The position numbers and the translations under genes were made by a program. The notes under the pieces were generated by a model. The model saw only the letters and a list, made by a program, of their open reading frames with translations. It had not been told where the DNA came from and searched no databases. Shown one piece after another: positions 1 through 15,290 of a stretch of 33,569 nt of DNA; position 1 is the first letter of the stretch; the number at the start of each line of letters is the position of its first letter. The stretch is taken from positions 1 through 33,569 of the forward strand of contig CAJWFS010000013.1 of assembly GCA_913030665.1 (NCBI GenBank), given 5' to 3'. Origin of the DNA: an uncultured Acidimicrobiaceae bacterium (lineage in GTDB: Bacteria; Actinomycetota; Acidimicrobiia; Acidimicrobiales; MedAcidi-G1).

Positions 1-1502
1 GCATCGGCTGCCACGCCTGCACCGTGGCCTGCAAGAGCGAGCACGACGTGCCGCTGGGGGTGAACCGCACCTGGCTGAAGTACGTCGAGACCGGTACGCA
101 TCCGGACAGCGAGCGCCACTTCTCGGTCATGCGCTGCAACCACTGCGACGACGCACCGTGCATGGACATCTGTCCGACCTCGGCGCTGTTCCGGGCCGAC
201 AACGGTGTGGTCGACTTCGACGACGACAACTGCATCGGGTGCAAGGCCTGCATGAACGCCTGCCCGTACGACGCCATCTACCTCAACCCGGAGACCGGCA
301 CGGCGCACAAGTGCAACTTCTGCAACCACAGGATCGAGGACGGCCTGGAACCCTCCTGTGTGGTGGTCTGCCCCACGCAGGCCATACGGGTCGGAGACCT
401 GGACGATCCGGCGTCCGAGATCTCGATGCTCCTCGCCTCGGGTGGCACGGTTCGCTCTCCGGAGCAGCGGACCAGCCCGAAGGTCGTCTACAAGGGCGCC
501 AGCCCCTCCTCGCTGGATCCCCTGGCCTCCTCCATCGCCGACGACGGCATGATCTGGGCCGACACCGCGCCCGGCCACCCGACCCCCACGCCGGTGGCGC
601 TGACCGCCTCCCCCGTCCGGGAGGACGGTGCCGCCATGGCGCGGACCGTCTACACGACCCAGCACCTGACGGCCTGGGGTTCGATGGTCTCGGGATACCT
701 GGTCACCAAGGCCGTAGCCGCCGGCGTGATGCTGGTCGCCTCCCTGCTGGTCATGCTCGGGCACGGCGGCTCACGGCTAGCCGTGGGCATCGTGCCCCCG
801 ATGCTGGCCGGCGTGTTCCTGGTGCTCACCGGCATCCTGCTGATCGCCGACCTGAAGCAGCCGAAGCGCTTCATGTACCTGCTGACACGGGGAAATCGGA
901 CGTCGTGGCTGGTGAAGGGCGCCTACGTACTGGGCGGCTTCGCCGCCTGCCTCGCCGTCTGGTGGATGGTCGGGCTGGTCGACGCCGACGGCCTCCTTCC
1001 CGTGCTGGTATTTCCCACCGTGCTGCTGGCACTGGCTACCGCCGGCTACACCGCCTTCCTGTTCGGACAGTGCGAGGGCCGCGATCTCTGGCAGGAACCC
1101 ATCCTGCTGCCGATCCTCCTGGCCCAGGCCGTCGTCGCCGGCGGAGCCGCCTACTCGTTGCTGGATCTCGTCATGCAGGTTCCGGGGACCGCTGCCATTC
1201 AATGGACGTTCCTGGCGGGTCTGGTCGCCAACGGCCTCCTGGTCGGCCTGGAGTTGCGGGGTGGGCACTCGCGGCATGTGACCATGGCCCTGGCCGAGAT
1301 GACCCGGGGAGGCCAGCGGAGGTCGTTCCGACAGTGGCGCCTGAACGGCATGGCAATGCCGCTGGTGCTCGTCGCCGCGTCGATCGCCACCGGGGCCGAT
1401 GACCCGTTGCTGCCAGCCGTGGCCGCACCCTTTGTCCTGTTCGGCCTGTTCGCATACGAGGACGCCTACGTGAGGGCCGGCCAGTCGGTCCCCCTCTCGT
1501 AG
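1..1502 (+). CDS. Fused 4Fe-4S ferredoxin / NrfD-type membrane anchor subunit of a molybdoenzyme (5' partial)
   Basis: This protein should carry electrons between the quinone pool and the molybdopterin subunit encoded next. The reading frame is open from base 3 and already codes for a cluster motif (I-G-C-H-A-C-T-V-A-C-K), so the true start lies left of the window; the GTG at 24 is internal. Four Cys groups follow in the DmsB/PsrB order: the first at the window edge, then C-N-H-C-D-D-A-P-C-x3-C-P, C-I-G-C-K-A-C-x3-C-P and C-N-F-C-x11-C-x3-C-P. A Pro/Ser-rich linker leads into a hydrophobic half with several membrane helices and the NrfD-like stretch DLKQPKRFMYLLTRGN. In DMSO/polysulfide reductases these two halves are usually separate genes. 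The next gene starts 21 bp downstream, so the two form an operon. The substrate cannot be read from the sequence. Confidence 0.88.
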   Translation, partial: IGCHACTVACKSEHDVPLGVNRTWLKYVETGTHPDSERHFSVMRCNHCDDAPCMDICPTSALFRADNGVVDFDDDNCIGCKACMNACPYDAIYLNPETGTAHKCNFCNHRIEDGLEPSCVVVCPTQAIRVGDLDDPASEISMLLASGGTVRSPEQRTSPKVVYKGASPSSLDPLASSIADDGMIWADTAPGHPTPTPVALTASPVREDGAAMARTVYTTQHLTAWGSMVSGYLVTKAVAAGVMLVASLLVMLGHGGSRLAVGIVPPMLAGVFLVLTGILLIADLKQPKRFMYLLTRGNRTSWLVKGAYVLGGFAACLAVWWMVGLVDADGLLPVLVFPTVLLALATAGYTAFLFGQCEGRDLWQEPILLPILLAQAVVAGGAAYSLLDLVMQVPGTAAIQWTFLAGLVANGLLVGLELRGGHSRHVTMALAEMTRGGQRRSFRQWRLNGMAMPLVLVAASIATGADDPLLPAVAAPFVLFGLFAYEDAYVRAGQSVPLS

Positions 1503-1523
1503 GTACGGAACCGGAGACCCACG

Positions 1524-4367
1524 ATGGCATTGGATGCAGCACCACCCGGTAGGGGTGCCGAGGGCCTGTCCGCCTACCCGCCCGAGGAGACCTGGGACCA
1601 CGTCGAGTCGCTGGACCCGGCGGCATGGCCGAACCGTGTCCGGAGGGCACACCGCCTGGTGCCCACCACGTGCTTCAACTGTGAGGCCAACTGCGGGCTG
1701 CTGGCATGGGTCGACAAGGAGACCGGGCGGATCACCAAGTTCGAGGGAAACCCGGTGCACCCTGCCAGTCGGGGTCGCAACTGCGCCAAGGGCCCGGCCA
1801 CCATCAACCAGGTGGAGGATCCCGAGCGGATCCTGCACCCGATGAAGCGGGTGGGCGAGCGGGGCGAGGGCCTCTGGGAGCGCATCACCTGGGACCAGGC
1901 CCTGGAAGAGGTAGGCACCCGCATAGGTAACGCCTTCCGGGAGGAACGCCACCACGAGGTCATGTACCACGTGGGTCGGATGGGCGACGACAGCTACATG
2001 GAGCGGGTGCTCCACTCCTGGGGCATCGACGGCCACAACAGCCACACCAACATCTGCTCCAGTGGCGCCCGTGTGGGCTACGCCTCGTGGATGGGCTTCG
2101 ACCGTCCCTCGGCCGACTTCGCCAACGCCAAGGTCATCTTCCTCATCTCGGCTCACCTGGAGGCCGGCCACTACTTCAACCCGCACGCCCAGCGGATCAT
2201 CGAGGGCCAGCAGAACGGCGCGACGGTCATCTGCATCGATCCCAGGCTGTCCAACACGGCATCCAAGGCCGACCACTGGTTCTCCGCCTGGCCGGGCACC
2301 GAGGCGTTCCTGCTGCTGGCCATCGCCCGGTTGCTGATCCTGGACGGCACCTGGGACGCGGCGTTCTTCGAGCGGTGGGTGAACTGGGAGACGTTCCTGC
2401 GCGAATCGCGACCTGACCTGGAGCCGGTGTTCGCCAACGTGGGTCCTGCACTGCTGGAGTTGTACGCCGAGTACACGCCGGAAGCCGCGGCCCGGGTCTG
2501 CGGAATCGACGAGGACCGCCTACGTACCGTCGCCCGCACCATCGGCGAAGGCCTGGGGGGGTTCGCCTCCCACACCTGGAGGGCTTCGTCGGCGGGCAAC
2601 GAGGGCGGCTGGATGGTGGCCCGCTGCCTGCAGTTCCTGACGGTGCTGACCGGGTCCGTGGGCACCGTGGGTGGCACCAACGCCAACGGCTGGAACAAGT
2701 TCATACCCGTCACCCCGATACATCCCGAACCCCAGGGTCGGTGGAACGAGATGCAGTGGCCGATCGAGTACCCGCTCAGCCACCACGAGATGTCGTTCCT
2801 GCTGCCGCACTTCCTGAAGGCCGGACGGGGCTACCTGGACACCTACTTCACCCGGGTCTACAACCCGCTCTGGACGAACCCGGACGGCTTTACGTGGATG
2901 GAGGTGCTGCGCGACACCGACAAGATCGGATGCCACGTGGCGCTCACCCCCACCTGGAACGAGTCGGCGTGGTTTGCCGACTACGTGCTGCCGATGGGAA
3001 TCGCATCGGAGCGCCACGACGTCGCCAGCTTCGAGACCCACAACGGCCGCTGGATCGGCTTTCGCCAGCCCGTCGGCCGGCGACACCGGGAGCTGGACGG
3101 CGAGACCATCCAGCGCACCTACGAGGCCAACCCGGGCGAGGTCTGGGAGGAGCAGGAGTTCTTCATCGACCTGTCGTGGCGGATCGACCCCGACGGTTCG
3201 TTGGGCATCCGCTCCCAGTTCGAGAGCGTCCAGAATCCGGGCACGCCGCTCACGCTCGACGAGTACTACTCGATGCTGTTCGAGGGTTCGGTTCCCGGCC
3301 TGCCAGAGGCGGCCGAGGCCGAGGGCATCACCCCGTTGGAGTACATGCGTCGGAAGGGCTCCTTCTCACTGCCCGGTGACCAGACGCAGGTCTACGAACG
3401 CGACGTGCCGGCAGCCGACCTGGCGGGGGCCGTCAGGGGCGCCGATGGTGTCTGGCGCCGGCCCGGTACAGCCGGTTCGCACGGCTCGCTTGAGGAGATC
3501 ACGGGCCACATGCCGTTCATCGGCGATGGTTCACCGGCCGTGGACGTCGATGGTGAGCCGAAGCTCGGGTTTCCGACGCCGTCGCGGAAGTTGGAGTTCT
3601 TCTCCGAGACGATCCGCGACTGGGGCTGGCCCCAGTACTCCATGCCGGCGTTCATCCGTAGCCAGGTGCACTGGGAGGACCTGGACATGTCGGCCGGCGA
3701 GCGGATCCTGGTACCCACCTTCCGCATTCCGACGTTGATCCACACCCGGTCGTCCAACAGCCAGTGGCTGAACGAGATCAGCCACCGCCACCCGCTCTGG
3801 CTGCACCCGAGCGATGCAGAGGAGCTGGGCATCGAGGAGAACGGCCTGGTCCGGATTACCACCCGCATCGGCCACTTCGTGATCCAGGCATGGCGCACGG
3901 AGGGCATTCGCCCGGGTGTGGTGGCGGCCAGTCACCACATGGGGCGGTGGCGCCTCGAGGACGACAAGGCACGGTCGTGGGGAGCCGGAAAGGCCTCGGT
4001 CGAACAGGATGAGGATGGCCGGTGGAAGCTCCAGCGGGAGCAGGGCTTGGAGCCCTACCAGAGCGACGATCCGGACACCGGGCTGATCTGGTGGACCGAT
4101 ACCGGGGTGCACCAGAACCTCACCTTCCCCGTGCAGCCCGATCCGGTCAGTGGCATGCACTGCTGGTTGCAGCGGGTGACGGTGTCGCCGGCCGAGCCCG
4201 GTGACGCATACGGCGACGTGGTGGTCGACACCGGGGCATCGCACCGGATCTTCGAGGAGTGGCTGGCGAAGGCCCGGCCGGGCCCCGGTCCTGACGGCCT
4301 ACGTCGCCCCCTCTGGTTTGCCCGTCCGGTCAAGCCAAAAGCGACGGCCTACCGCTACGACGCCTGA
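1524..4367 (+). CDS. Molybdopterin-dependent oxidoreductase, catalytic subunit (DMSO reductase superfamily)
   Basis: This 947-aa protein is the large catalytic subunit of a complex iron-sulfur molybdoenzyme. Cys50, Cys53, Cys57 and Cys87 have the C-x2-C-x3-C-x29-C spacing of the N-terminal [4Fe-4S] cluster. The region around residues 171-183 (HNSHTNICSSGAR) aligns with the Mo-ligand loop, making Cys178 the likely Mo ligand. The C-terminal third has a molybdopterin dinucleotide-binding type domain, with motifs such as LIHTRSSNSQWLNE. I see no twin-arginine signal, so the subunit probably stays in the cytoplasm or is carried by a partner. The ATG at 1524 has GGAG about 7 nt upstream. The preceding gene supplies the ferredoxin and membrane anchor, an unusual BC-then-A order. 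Polysulfide, thiosulfate, DMSO/TMAO-like or organic substrates are all possible; the subfamily is unresolved. Confidence 0.9.
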   Translation: MALDAAPPGRGAEGLSAYPPEETWDHVESLDPAAWPNRVRRAHRLVPTTCFNCEANCGLLAWVDKETGRITKFEGNPVHPASRGRNCAKGPATINQVEDPERILHPMKRVGERGEGLWERITWDQALEEVGTRIGNAFREERHHEVMYHVGRMGDDSYMERVLHSWGIDGHNSHTNICSSGARVGYASWMGFDRPSADFANAKVIFLISAHLEAGHYFNPHAQRIIEGQQNGATVICIDPRLSNTASKADHWFSAWPGTEAFLLLAIARLLILDGTWDAAFFERWVNWETFLRESRPDLEPVFANVGPALLELYAEYTPEAAARVCGIDEDRLRTVARTIGEGLGGFASHTWRASSAGNEGGWMVARCLQFLTVLTGSVGTVGGTNANGWNKFIPVTPIHPEPQGRWNEMQWPIEYPLSHHEMSFLLPHFLKAGRGYLDTYFTRVYNPLWTNPDGFTWMEVLRDTDKIGCHVALTPTWNESAWFADYVLPMGIASERHDVASFETHNGRWIGFRQPVGRRHRELDGETIQRTYEANPGEVWEEQEFFIDLSWRIDPDGSLGIRSQFESVQNPGTPLTLDEYYSMLFEGSVPGLPEAAEAEGITPLEYMRRKGSFSLPGDQTQVYERDVPAADLAGAVRGADGVWRRPGTAGSHGSLEEITGHMPFIGDGSPAVDVDGEPKLGFPTPSRKLEFFSETIRDWGWPQYSMPAFIRSQVHWEDLDMSAGERILVPTFRIPTLIHTRSSNSQWLNEISHRHPLWLHPSDAEELGIEENGLVRITTRIGHFVIQAWRTEGIRPGVVAASHHMGRWRLEDDKARSWGAGKASVEQDEDGRWKLQREQGLEPYQSDDPDTGLIWWTDTGVHQNLTFPVQPDPVSGMHCWLQRVTVSPAEPGDAYGDVVVDTGASHRIFEEWLAKARPGPGPDGLRRPLWFARPVKPKATAYRYDA

Positions 4368-8756: not shown

Positions 8757-9572
8757 CTACCGGATGGGGGAGGTAAGCCCCTCGTCGTTGGCCGGTCGGC
8801 TCCTCGAGAGGAACGCCCCGGCGTCGGCCAGCAGGAACTGTCCGGTGATGCAACGTGCCAGGTCGCTGGTTAGGAACACCACCAGGCGGGCCAGCTCGTC
8901 GTGTTCGACCATGCGTCGCAGGGGCGTGGCCTCGACGATCGCCTCCATGCGCTCCTGGGTGAATGCGGCCGCCACCGTCTCGGTCATCGTGGTTCCCGGG
9001 GCCATGGCGTTGACCCGGACGCCGGCCGGTCCCAACTCCACGGCCATGGATGTGACCAGGTGGTTCACCGCCGCCTTGGCCGCCGCATAGGCCGCGTTGT
9101 ACGGCGACGGCCGGGTCGCCTCCCCGGAGGTCACGAACAGGATCGAACCACCCCCCCTCTCGACCATCAGCTCGGCCTCGGCCCGACCACAGAGGGCGGC
9201 CACCATGAGGTTCTGGTCGATGATGTCGTGCCAGTCGTCGTACCGGTACCGGACGAAGGGTCGTGGCCGCCGACCGGGCGGCAGCATCCCGACGTTGTTG
9301 ACAGCGATGTCCAGGCCACCCAGGCGGTTGGCCACGGTGGCCACCATGGCGTCCACGGCGGTTTCGTCACGGCAGTCGGCGGCCACGGCGATAGCCGTGC
9401 ATCCCTCGTCCGTAATCTCCGCCACCACCGCCTCGGCCCGGTCGGGCCTGAGATCGTTGACGGCCACCGCCGCGCCGGCACGGGCCAGCCATCGGGCGAT
9501 TTCCCGGCCGATGCCGGCGCCCGCGCCGGTCACCAGGGCGGTGCGGCCCGCGTGGTCGATCGGGATGCTCAT
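8757..9572 (-). CDS. Short-chain dehydrogenase/reductase (SDR) in the UGSC operon
   Basis: This 271-aa protein has the classical SDR motifs: TGAGAGIG at 15-22, NNVG at 92-95, Asn121, Ser149, and Tyr162-x3-Lys166. VNDLRPDR at the end of strand 2 suggests NAD(H) binding through Asp40. The C terminus has the common GQFLLADAG segment of FabG-like members. It begins 7 bp after the stop of the selenoprotein gene and is the last gene of the three-gene minus-strand operon, so it probably acts in the same pathway. Substrate unknown. Confidence 0.9.
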   Translation of the reverse strand: MSIPIDHAGRTALVTGAGAGIGREIARWLARAGAAVAVNDLRPDRAEAVVAEITDEGCTAIAVAADCRDETAVDAMVATVANRLGGLDIAVNNVGMLPPGRRPRPFVRYRYDDWHDIIDQNLMVAALCGRAEAELMVERGGGSILFVTSGEATRPSPYNAAYAAAKAAVNHLVTSMAVELGPAGVRVNAMAPGTTMTETVAAAFTQERMEAIVEATPLRRMVEHDELARLVVFLTSDLARCITGQFLLADAGAFLSRSRPANDEGLTSPIR

Positions 9573-9579
9573 GTACCGG

Positions 9580-10104
9580 TCACCCGGCCATGTCGGTCAG
9601 CAGGCCCAGCACCTCGTCGACCACAGCGTCCGCCCGGTCCAGGATCGCAGCCTCGGGGACCCCGCCGATCGGGTGTTCCACCGAGACGATCCGGAGGCCG
9701 GCCAGGCCCAGGTCGGCGGCGGTCTGGTCGGCGAGGAGGCGGAGTTCGCCGGTGGCCACCAGCACGGTGGGGATGCCGGCACCTTCCAGCTTCACGGTGT
9801 CGTGGACACTCCACGACGTGCAGCTTCCTCAATCGGCTGTGCCGGTGAGGACCAGCTCCACTTCCTCTACGAGTCGGCCGAGTACCTGGTCCTCGCATGG
9901 GATGGCGGCGTTCTTGGTCTCGACGAGGGCCACCTCGGCACCCGTACGGGCGGCAAGCCGCTCAGCCAGTCGTGTCAGGAGGATGCCGGCATTGGGCTTG
10001 CGGTTGTCGAGGATGCCGATCCGCCTGCCGGCCAGGACAGCAGGAGTGGGTGCCAGGGTGATCGGCGGCGTGCTGGCCGCGCCGGTGGGTGGGTGTATCT
10101 GCAC
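9580..10104 (-). CDS. UGSC-family selenoprotein with in-frame TGA (Sec92)
   Basis: Two open stretches in the same frame are joined by a single TGA at 9831-9829. Read through, they give one 174-aa protein containing T-G-T-A-D-U-G-S-C-T-S-W-S, the motif that names the UGSC selenoprotein family, with Sec92 and resolving Cys95 in a redox-like U-x-x-C arrangement. Downstream residues (VKLEGAGIPTVLVATGEL) continue the domain without a break. The start is GTG at 10104: AGGAG lies 5 nt upstream and overlaps the stop of the preceding gene, so the two are coupled. A perfect hairpin 12-30 nt after the TGA fits a bacterial SECIS element. Without Sec insertion the product would stop at 91 aa. No Sec machinery (selA, selB, selC, selD) is in the window, so decoding is inferred. 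The biochemical role of the family is not established as far as I know; a thiol/selenol redox or reductase-like role is a guess. Confidence 0.88.
9793..9820 (-). promoter_or_regulatory. Candidate bacterial SECIS element
   Basis: In the mRNA, GTCGTGG and CCACGAC form a perfect 7-bp stem (9817-9811 with 9805-9799) closing the 5-nt loop AGTGT. An outer CAC/GTG can extend the stem across a 3-nt bulge. The loop starts 19 nt after the UGA and has G as its second base, matching the usual bSECIS pattern (G in the first two loop positions, roughly 16-37 nt from UGA). It lies inside coding sequence for S-W-S-V-H-D-T-V. SelB binding is inferred. Confidence 0.72.
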
Positions 10105-10112
10105 GGGTGCTC

Positions 10113-11165
10113 CTACGGCTCGACGGGAACGGTGACGCTCCGGGTCATTCCCCAACTGGGTATGACGGAACTGTGCCTGCCGGCGCCGCCCACCACCATG
10201 ATCCGGATGTTGTCGGGGTGTCCGGTCATCGGGGCGGCCTCTCCATCCTGCAGGGACTGCATCCAGGGCGTCCAGGCCCGATGTGCGAAGGCCCGCTTCA
10301 GCTCGCCGACGGGCAGTCGGGCGCGTTGGAAGAGGTAGGACGCGACGTCGCCCCGGGACCATCCGGCGTCGGCGCAGGTGGCGGCGTGTTCCGGGCAGAG
10401 CGCCACCAGGTACTCGCCCTGGCTGATGCAGGCGTTGTTCTGGGCGGTGGTCGCCATTGCCGAGGCCACCTTGTCGAGGATTCCGGTCGGGCTCGAGGAT
10501 TCCATGTCGTGCACGTTGTGTGGTGCTTCGCCGCAGTGGATGGTCACCGCCGATGGGGCCTCCACCCCGACTGAGGCCGCGTAGCCGGTCCAAGGCGAGG
10601 CTTCCAGGTTCTCGGCGACGCAGAAGCCGAACTTGGCGGGCCCACCCTGGGTGGAGGCGTCGCCGTCGCCCGGAGTGGCACCGGCAACGTGCAGGAGGAT
10701 GAGGCGGAGGGCCCGACCGGTGGCGGCGTTGGCCCGGCTTCCAGGGCCGAACGCCCCGAGGCCGCCGTGGTAGCCGGCAGTACGGGCCACGTCGCCGTGG
10801 ACGACTAGGAGGGGGGCGACGCAGTGCGTGGTGGCGTTGACTCCTCGCAGGTTCAGGTCGGGATGGGCCAGGGCCCGCACGGCCGACACCAGGACCGGGA
10901 GGTGGTCAGGTAGGCAGCCGGCCATCACGGCGTTCACGGCGATGGCCAGCCGGGTTGCCTGGCCGAACCGCGGTGGGAGGCTGGCCACGACCTCCTCGGG
11001 GTCGTGGCCATTGCAGCCGGCGAGCATCGCGCCCACCCGTTCGGAGGTGGGCGCAACCACCGGCAGGCCGTCTCCCCAGCCGTGGGAGGCCAGGACCTCG
11101 ATCAGGTCGGCATCGTCGTCCACCTCGAGGAGGTCGGTGGGCGAACCTGTCGTGTCTACAGTCAT
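10113..11165 (-). CDS. Uncharacterised Cys-rich protein coupled to the UGSC selenoprotein
   Basis: I do not recognise an enzyme family for this 350-aa protein. It is soluble, with no signal peptide or membrane segment. It has eight cysteines (51, 84, 115, 182, 211, 246, 257, 264) and several motifs that look conserved rather than low complexity: GWGDGLPVVAPT at 29-40, LNLRGVNATTHCVAPLL, GRALRLILLHVAGATPGDGD, KFGFCVAENLEASPW at 178-191, and IHCGEAPHNV. The ATG ending at 11165 gives MTVDTTGSPTDLLEV. Its stop codon lies within the ribosome-binding site of the selenoprotein gene, so the proteins are probably made in fixed ratio and may form a complex. It is divergent from a TetR gene across 56 bp. 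Function unknown; a partner enzyme whose thiols exchange with the UGSC selenol is a hypothesis. Confidence 0.82.
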   Translation of the reverse strand: MTVDTTGSPTDLLEVDDDADLIEVLASHGWGDGLPVVAPTSERVGAMLAGCNGHDPEEVVASLPPRFGQATRLAIAVNAVMAGCLPDHLPVLVSAVRALAHPDLNLRGVNATTHCVAPLLVVHGDVARTAGYHGGLGAFGPGSRANAATGRALRLILLHVAGATPGDGDASTQGGPAKFGFCVAENLEASPWTGYAASVGVEAPSAVTIHCGEAPHNVHDMESSSPTGILDKVASAMATTAQNNACISQGEYLVALCPEHAATCADAGWSRGDVASYLFQRARLPVGELKRAFAHRAWTPWMQSLQDGEAAPMTGHPDNIRIMVVGGAGRHSSVIPSWGMTRSVTVPVEP

Positions 11166-11221: not shown

Positions 11222-11806
11222 ATGGCGGCACGACGGGGTGTGACCAGGGACCGGGTGGTCCACGCCGCCCTGGAGGTCCTGGACGAGGTAGGGAACATCG
11301 ACGCTGTACGGCCGTCGATGGTGGCTGCACGGCTGGGGATCCGGTCGCAGTCGCTCTACGCCCATGTCGACGGCGTGAACGGACTGCGTCGAATGCTGGC
11401 CCTCCAGTCACTTGCCTACCTGGCCGATGCTGTGACCGGGGCCGCCGTCGGGCGGTCGGGTCCCGACGCCGTAGACGCCGTTGTCCGGGCACACCTGGGC
11501 TTCGCCATGGCATGGCCGGGACGCTTCAGCGCCGCCATCCACCCGCCGGGGGACGATCCCGACCTTCTGGCAGCAGTGGAACGCGTCGGCAGCCCTCTCC
11601 AGACGGTCCTGGAGATGCTGGGCCTGGACGCCGACGAGAGGGTCCACTGGACCCGCCTGCAGCTCTCCCTGGTCTGGGGCTTCGCCACCCTCTGGCGCGA
11701 TGGGCGCCTCACGCTGGCACCACCTCCGGAGTCGACGATCGACCACCTGGTGGCCGCCCTCCTGGCCCGGTTGGGGCCCAGCCCGGCACCGGGAGCCTCG
11801 AGATGA
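11222..11806 (+). CDS. TetR family transcriptional regulator (WHG-type C-terminal domain)
   Basis: This 194-aa regulator has an N-terminal helix-turn-helix at about residues 30-58 (VRPSMVAARLGIRSQSLYAHVDGVNGLRRML). The C-terminal half, with HLGFAMAWPGRFSAAIHPP and LVWGFATLWRDGRL, resembles the TetR_C/WHG ligand domain often seen in actinobacteria. The ATG is set by GGAGGGG immediately upstream; spacing is tight. The gene overlaps the next one by ATGA, so the two are co-translated, and it is divergent from the UGSC operon, which is its most likely target together with its own operon. Confidence 0.87.
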   Translation: MAARRGVTRDRVVHAALEVLDEVGNIDAVRPSMVAARLGIRSQSLYAHVDGVNGLRRMLALQSLAYLADAVTGAAVGRSGPDAVDAVVRAHLGFAMAWPGRFSAAIHPPGDDPDLLAAVERVGSPLQTVLEMLGLDADERVHWTRLQLSLVWGFATLWRDGRLTLAPPPESTIDHLVAALLARLGPSPAPGASR

Positions 11807-14269: not shown

Positions 14270-14273
14270 GTGG

Positions 14274-14360
14274 CGGAAGGTGTGGGATTTGAACCCACGG
14301 TGACCCGGAGGCCACAACGGCTTTCGAGGCCGCCCCATTCGTCCGCTCTGGCAACCTTCC
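14274..14360 (-). tRNA. tRNA-Ser(CGA)
   Basis: The 87-nt gene has acceptor GGAAGGT pairing with ACCTTCC, discriminator G, T arm GTGGG-TTCAAAT-CCCAC, anticodon loop CTCGAAA (anticodon CGA, reading UCG) and the long variable arm of serine tRNAs. The genome encodes CCA directly after it (14273-14271). Confidence 0.95.
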
Positions 14361-15157: not shown

Positions 15158-15244
15158 GGAGGGATGCGAGAGCGGACGATTCGGCACGCCTGGAACGCGT
15201 GTGTGGCTTCACCGTCACCGTGGGTTCGAATCCCACTCCCTCCG
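15158..15244 (+). tRNA. tRNA-Ser(GGA)
   Basis: The 87-nt gene has acceptor GGAGGGA pairing with TCCCTCC, discriminator G, T arm GTGGG-TTCGAAT-CCCAC, anticodon loop CTGGAAC (anticodon GGA, reading UCC/UCU) and a long class-II variable arm. The next bases are CCG, so CCA must be added after transcription, unlike the neighbouring tRNA-Ser(CGA). Confidence 0.95.
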
Positions 15245-15290
15245 CCGCTCAGCGGTCCGGAGACCCGAGGCCCCTCCGGTGGTGCCGATG

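Follow-up and report, generated by a model that had tools for sequence, protein, structure and literature searches.

The window analysed here, the whole stretch of 33,569 nucleotides, belongs to a draft genome of 1.94 Mb in 177 contigs that is 88% complete. It holds a minus-strand operon in which a gene of the UGSC selenoprotein family lies between the genes of an unnamed partner protein and of an SDR-family oxidoreductase. The features of the locus are as follows:

8757..9572, minus strand: SDR-family oxidoreductase, third gene of the operon (profile matches and locus comparison)
9580..10104, minus strand: UGSC family selenoprotein gene, 174 aa with predicted Sec92, GTG start at 10104, TGA stop at 9582-9580
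9799..9817, minus strand: SECIS-like hairpin, 8-bp stem GTCGTGGA/TCCACGAC, loop GTG, located 14-32 nt downstream of the TGA's first base
9829..9831, minus strand: in-frame TGA, the U of U-G-S-C and predicted Sec codon (from sequence; a Cys codon stands here in 14/118 distinct motif-bearing homologues)
10113..11165, minus strand: unnamed partner protein of 350 aa, directly upstream of the UGSC gene, with no significant Pfam or NCBIfam match
11240..11806, plus strand: TetR-type regulator (TetR_C_33 domain), divergent from the operon (neighbour-gene calls and locus comparison)

Neighbouring genes were called with a codon-position caller, and the surroundings of the operon in the window also include two amidohydrolase-2 genes, a second SDR gene and a TIM-barrel gene. 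At 3-4367 on the plus strand, a fused 4Fe-4S/NrfD protein is encoded ahead of a DMSO-reductase/PhsA-type molybdopterin oxidoreductase, and no NCBIfam cut-off is exceeded by any of them.

The UGSC gene occupies a single minus-strand frame from 10104 to 9580, whose sole interruption in sequence and translation is the TGA at 9831-9829. The translation around it reads ...LTGTAD(TGA)GSCTSWSVHD..., and the motif codons TGA-GGA-AGC-TGC at 9831-9820 spell the U/C-G-S-C redox site. The original prediction, made from the letters of the window, had described two open stretches divided by this TGA alone, a good ribosome-binding site coupled to the preceding gene, a downstream half running on towards the next gene of the operon, and Sec as residue 92, all of which we recovered. 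The GGAG-type ribosome-binding site overlaps the stop of the preceding gene (TAG, 10115-10113), the frame stays open to its own stop, and the SDR gene starts just past it at 9572, leaving the UGSC gene tightly packed between its neighbours. A simple scan of the window for other read-through genes returned only the dnaX/recR junction, but as it also missed the UGSC TGA its outcome carries no weight.

Both curated models of the family match once across the TGA, PF24696 over residues 3-170 (156.1 bits, cut-off 25) and NF041046 over residues 26-170 (132.1 bits, cut-off 125), and the family assignment made earlier is thereby borne out. Judged by its sequence, the gene adds one more member to a known family, with which it shares the U-G-S-C motif, the Cys homologues and both cut-offs, with no essential difference. 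The earlier expectation that a standard annotation would yield two fragments or a pseudogene holds less firmly, since NCBI has a model (NF041046) for this family and the two-fragment outcome is not certain. In a 2008 ocean survey, UGSC ranks as the fifth commonest selenoprotein family, with 255 sequences (PMC2398784), and a 2026 review places it among families with functions largely uncharacterised (PMC13188914).

Relatives of the UGSC protein were found at 17 named loci, mostly in Acidimicrobiia or Acidimicrobiales metagenome assemblies, and the best of them, 94% identical (L017), has a TGA at the same codon. The homologue set drawn from the fetched loci comprises 118 distinct UGSC genes with the motif, 104 with TGA and 14 with Cys at this codon, the column at which the original prediction had advised looking for Cys; left out of the set were five profile matches, namely two motif-less fragments and three TGA genes with His before Sec. 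The homologues continue behind the codon and keep both halves; relatives ending at the TGA or lacking the downstream half would have contradicted the prediction.

The evidence from the hairpin exceeds what was available to the original prediction. Taken alone, the hairpin of the window folds moderately better than shuffled sequences (z -1.81, with 6/200 shuffles as good). Across the homologues, all 104 TGA genes retain stem pair 20-26 (71 C-G, 32 G-C and 1 U-G) versus 5/14 Cys genes, the outer pair 15-31 is kept in 86/104 TGA genes, and AGT encodes the Ser that precedes the loop in 101/104 TGA genes versus 1/14 Cys genes. When synonymous codons were redrawn by pooled usage, the expectation for the TGA set was 50.9 genes with pair 20-26 and 4.9 with Ser AGT (observed, 104 and 101); the 5 and 1 observed in the Cys set come close to the expected 6.1 and 0.7. 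Furthermore, Val at +8 is encoded by GTC in 28/28 genes with Trp (TGG) at +6 and by GTG in 59/59 genes with Cys (TGC/TGT) at +6; read from the sequences, this switch is a compensating change at a synonymous site. On a tree built from 117 of these 118 genes with the motif columns excluded, the compensating stem pair changes just twice and Sec/Cys three times; independent events are accordingly few, and the pairs are too few for an independent-pair test. The strength of the hairpin evidence lies in synonymous codons held across diverged genes rather than in many events, and the homologue comparison predicts that the element directly behind the UGA acts as a SECIS.

The search for Sec machinery that had been proposed as a check on the prediction was positive throughout in this 88% complete draft. 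A tRNA-Sec was found by Infernal (67.5 bits, above the cut-off) and by ARAGORN (anticodon tca), and selA (384.5 bits), selB (267.5 bits) and selD (361 bits) all exceeded their cut-offs. The selD gene itself carries one in-frame TGA (L014, contig C1:64952-65872, minus strand). Two tRNA-Ser genes of the window, at 14271-14360 (minus strand) and 15158-15246 (plus strand), gave matches to the tRNA-Sec model below the cut-off. A second UGSC gene, likewise with TGA, lies on contig C20 of the same genome.

A profile census of the class to which the window belongs revealed UGSC matches in 139/395 genomes; among the matches listed, 13 had no internal stop and all others had one TGA. The selA gene was present in 97/102 genomes with a listed TGA UGSC versus 1/7 genomes with listed Cys forms only (Fisher p 1.5e-6, listed matches only and uncorrected for kinship), where the selA-positive count of 260 genomes includes a few fragments and 256 are over the cut-off. 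No selA was found in five genomes with a listed TGA UGSC (G188, G292, G361, G364 and G377). Within the family of the window, selA occurs in 45/48 genomes; its absence from three drafts of 69-88% completeness that carry TGA genes of the UGSC system (G404, G405 and G417) speaks against the Sec reading unless it reflects the incompleteness of these drafts.

Given that the source is one draft metagenome assembly, the TGA could be a nonsense mutation or an assembly error. Its presence at the same codon in 104 of the 118 distinct homologues and in the 94%-identical relative, the conserved hairpin behind it and the full Sec machinery of the genome make such a pseudogene or artefact barely conceivable. 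The TGA could also serve as a stop, with the two halves made separately or with regulatory read-through, and selenoprotein genes can indeed yield truncated products when selenium is low. However, the Cys homologues pass this codon without a stop, the U/C-G-S-C motif spans the junction, and the structural model (below) folds as a single compact domain in which a helix begins at the motif; we consider this use of the codon very improbable. Pseudogene, assembly error and true stop were all rejected on the conserved TGA column and the hairpin.

An AF2 model of UGSC derived from 19 sequences (pLDDT 90.1) is an alpha/beta sandwich with a flavodoxin/Rossmann-like sheet, in which the motif follows the fourth strand and residue 92 lies between strand 84-90 and helix 93-108. 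Foldseek matched the model to flavodoxin-like and other generic alpha/beta domains at TM values of about 0.3-0.5, and thioredoxin was absent among the 50 PDB matches listed of 1786. A sequence search of the PDB returned nothing useful (ArsA1 ATPase at E 0.064, a helicase at E 0.92). The 2008 survey had called the UGSC fold probably thioredoxin-like (PMC2398784); this was a suggestion rather than a criterion of the curated models, and a thioredoxin fold is not supported by the AF2 model and its Foldseek matches. An oxidoreductase acting on protein disulfides in the manner of thioredoxin, as suggested in 2008, would accord with the UxxC motif, and the likeness to thioredoxin (PF00085) consists of this x-x-C type redox motif and of a Trx-like CxxC domain to which the partner is joined in sister operons. 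However, the predicted fold of UGSC itself is not Trx-like, its profile homology goes to GrdB-type Sec domains, and a separate Trx-like domain is already supplied in the sister operons, so that this function appears unlikely.

The kinship to GrdB was sought with PF07355, the model of GrdB-type selenoprotein B (glycine/sarcosine/betaine reductase), which gave no match in UGSC up to E 10. In 198 genomes the model produced 8 full-length matches and many short C-terminal matches, and its match stops just short of the Sec motif. A UPxC gene whose motif includes TGA is present at 21 of 30 loci fetched, and 6/8 full-length GrdB-like genes (L065-L069 and L071) could be read through the motif, all six having U-G-T-G with TGA and not U-x-x-C. 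The window genome contains a GrdB-like short selenoprotein gene of UPVC type (L091, contig C18:14119-14319 and upstream, minus strand), whose motif likewise includes a TGA. Aligning 121 UGSC sequences with 27 GrdB/UPxC Sec domains in hhalign gave 96.3% (E 1.9e-9), with the motif columns aligned and with GIP and then HP-x-G in register after U-x-x-C. The separate templates alone gave probabilities of 85.6% and 77.9%, and column shuffles reached at most 0.6% (25 of the joint template) and 1.1% (50 of the two separate templates). The link spans 63 columns around the motif, and no solved GrdB structure turned up for a comparison of folds. This profile evidence makes UGSC a homologue of the Sec domain found in GrdB-type reductases and their UPxC short forms, and UPxC genes have a hairpin at about the same distance (by eye, uncounted). 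UGSC is thus related to the GrdB family, not a member of it: it has no PF07355 match, lacks the rest of GrdB and has a different, unnamed partner.

The partner accompanies UGSC widely. At 133 UGSC profile hits, which include overlapping loci and two motif-less fragments, it lies directly upstream on the same strand in 106, right behind UGSC in 11, further upstream (1.2-3.8 kb) in 7 and outside the examined stretch in 9. On one Chloroflexi contig (L033), three UGSC hits within 12.5 kb are each followed by a partner gene. Among 17 members of the partner family scanned, none had a significant Pfam or NCBIfam match, the best being to an outer-membrane channel model at E 0.004 in one member only. 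The structural model of the partner (pLDDT 82.7) found no convincing PDB match; class I fumarase (E 6e-3, probability 0.57) and cyclic amide hydrolases (E 0.018, probability 0.47) were too weak to be accepted, and a sequence search of the PDB returned nothing useful, with one designed protein at E 0.004. Kinship of the partner to full GrdB or to UPxC proteins was likewise rejected (profile probabilities 0.7% and 0.4%).

The UGSC loci fall into two operon types, counted with loci of some genomes overlapping. At Trp-type loci, the type of the window, a Trx fusion occurs in 0/23, an SDR gene is the first same-strand gene downstream in 14/23 and a TetR homologue is present in 6/23. Of the Cys-type loci, 41/48 show a fusion of the partner with a Trx-like domain and 0/48 have an SDR gene in that first downstream place. 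Eleven loci with Cys in place of Sec have other residues at +6 and no Trx fusion.

The fused domain is called Trx-like from its CxxC, the V-P-T that follows, and a weak match to the thioredoxin model (E 0.0053, far below the cut-off). In 57/119 distinct partner genes, the CxxC domain is joined to the partner by a linker of the form [RK]-P-G-(C/U)-[GA]-S, with Cys in 47 and TGA in 10, and the genes with a TGA linker are those of the ten genomes in the window's family that carry a UGSC gene among the matches listed. The window genome has such a fusion on contig C20 (L154:2280-3725, minus strand), with the linker K-P-G-(TGA)-G-S. When the 48 genomes of the family were searched with this copy, 46 had a match, 45 of them covering the linker, 41 with one TGA and 4 with none. 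The four genomes with a linker Cys (TGT/TGC) all belong to a single genus, which also includes two members with TGA and two that had no match, and the UGSC gene neighbouring these Cys linkers still has TGA. At the DNA level, 23 distinct linker-TGA genes were compared with 52 Cys genes. A stem located 15-35 nt past the linker codon keeps all eight pairs in 19/23 of the former and 1/52 of the latter, the loop of the TGA genes is CGGGC in 23/23, and an Asp codon (GAT/GAC) compensates with Ile/Val (12 U-A, 10 C-G and 1 A-A). Note that independent linker events are few because all 23 TGA genes come from one family. No NCBIfam model covers the fusion, and no description of a Trx-(U/C)-partner fusion was found in the literature searched, which included passages of PMC2398784, PMC13188914 and PMC9312934; the supplement of PMC2398784 has a UGSC/Unknown_1 fusion, whose Unknown_1 may be the UGSC partner. 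Judged from these sequences, the Trx-U-partner gene is apparently an undescribed selenoprotein with Cys in other lineages.

Family membership, machinery, hairpin constraint, Sec-domain homology and partner linkage indicate that the UGSC gene of the window very probably encodes a real selenium-containing protein, and we infer Sec insertion inside the cell from sequence. UGA codon 92 would be decoded as Sec by means of the hairpin 14-32 nt downstream and the SelA/SelB/SelC/SelD of the cell, placing Sec at a helix start in an alpha/beta domain with a Cys three residues on (U-x-x-C). UGSC and the partner encoded just upstream, with which it may form a complex, look like a redox enzyme, perhaps a reductase. 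The partner would bind or activate a small substrate and present it to the selenolate of UGSC, whose attack would leave a U-C selenenyl sulfide that is then reduced again. This is the likeliest mechanism in our judgement, offered tentatively. In Cys-type sister operons the U-C bridge would be reduced by the partner-fused Trx-like domain through the Cys/Sec linker, and in the Trp-type operon of the window by another electron donor, possibly via the SDR.

Glycine reductase chemistry cleaves a C-N or similar bond. A GrdB-like cleavage of such a bond in a small substrate of catabolism, by way of a selenoether intermediate, is the reaction we favour for UGSC and its partner, although we hold it only as a possibility. 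It is suggested by the Sec-domain homology, by catabolic-looking neighbours in the window (the two amidohydrolase-2 genes, the two SDRs and TetR) and by the occurrence of MTTB, DAO and GCV_T families next to some UGSC loci (each 2 of 81 genes upstream). On the other hand, the partner is unrelated by profile to full GrdB and UPxC proteins, and the signals from neighbouring genes are sparse and could be accidental. It is similarly possible, with somewhat less assurance than the general mechanism, that UGSC, partner and Trx-like domain constitute a GrdB-type reductase system of Acidimicrobiia that is so far undescribed and presumably operates in oxic conditions, in which the K-P-G-U-G-S linker of the window's family would be a second, undescribed Sec site and one two-gene operon would yield two Sec residues exchanging electrons.

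Taken singly, the gene adds a member to a family already known; what merits study is the partner, the connection to GrdB and the Sec of the linker. The family of the partner, the kinship with GrdB-type Sec domains and the second Sec site in the sister operon had gone unseen in the original prediction, and the partner gene, the operon types and the SECIS constraint are added here to the UGSC family. The linker Sec, if true, would add a selenoprotein family. With a link to GrdB-type Sec domains, a constant partner and a Trx-like electron donor, the function of UGSC becomes directly testable.
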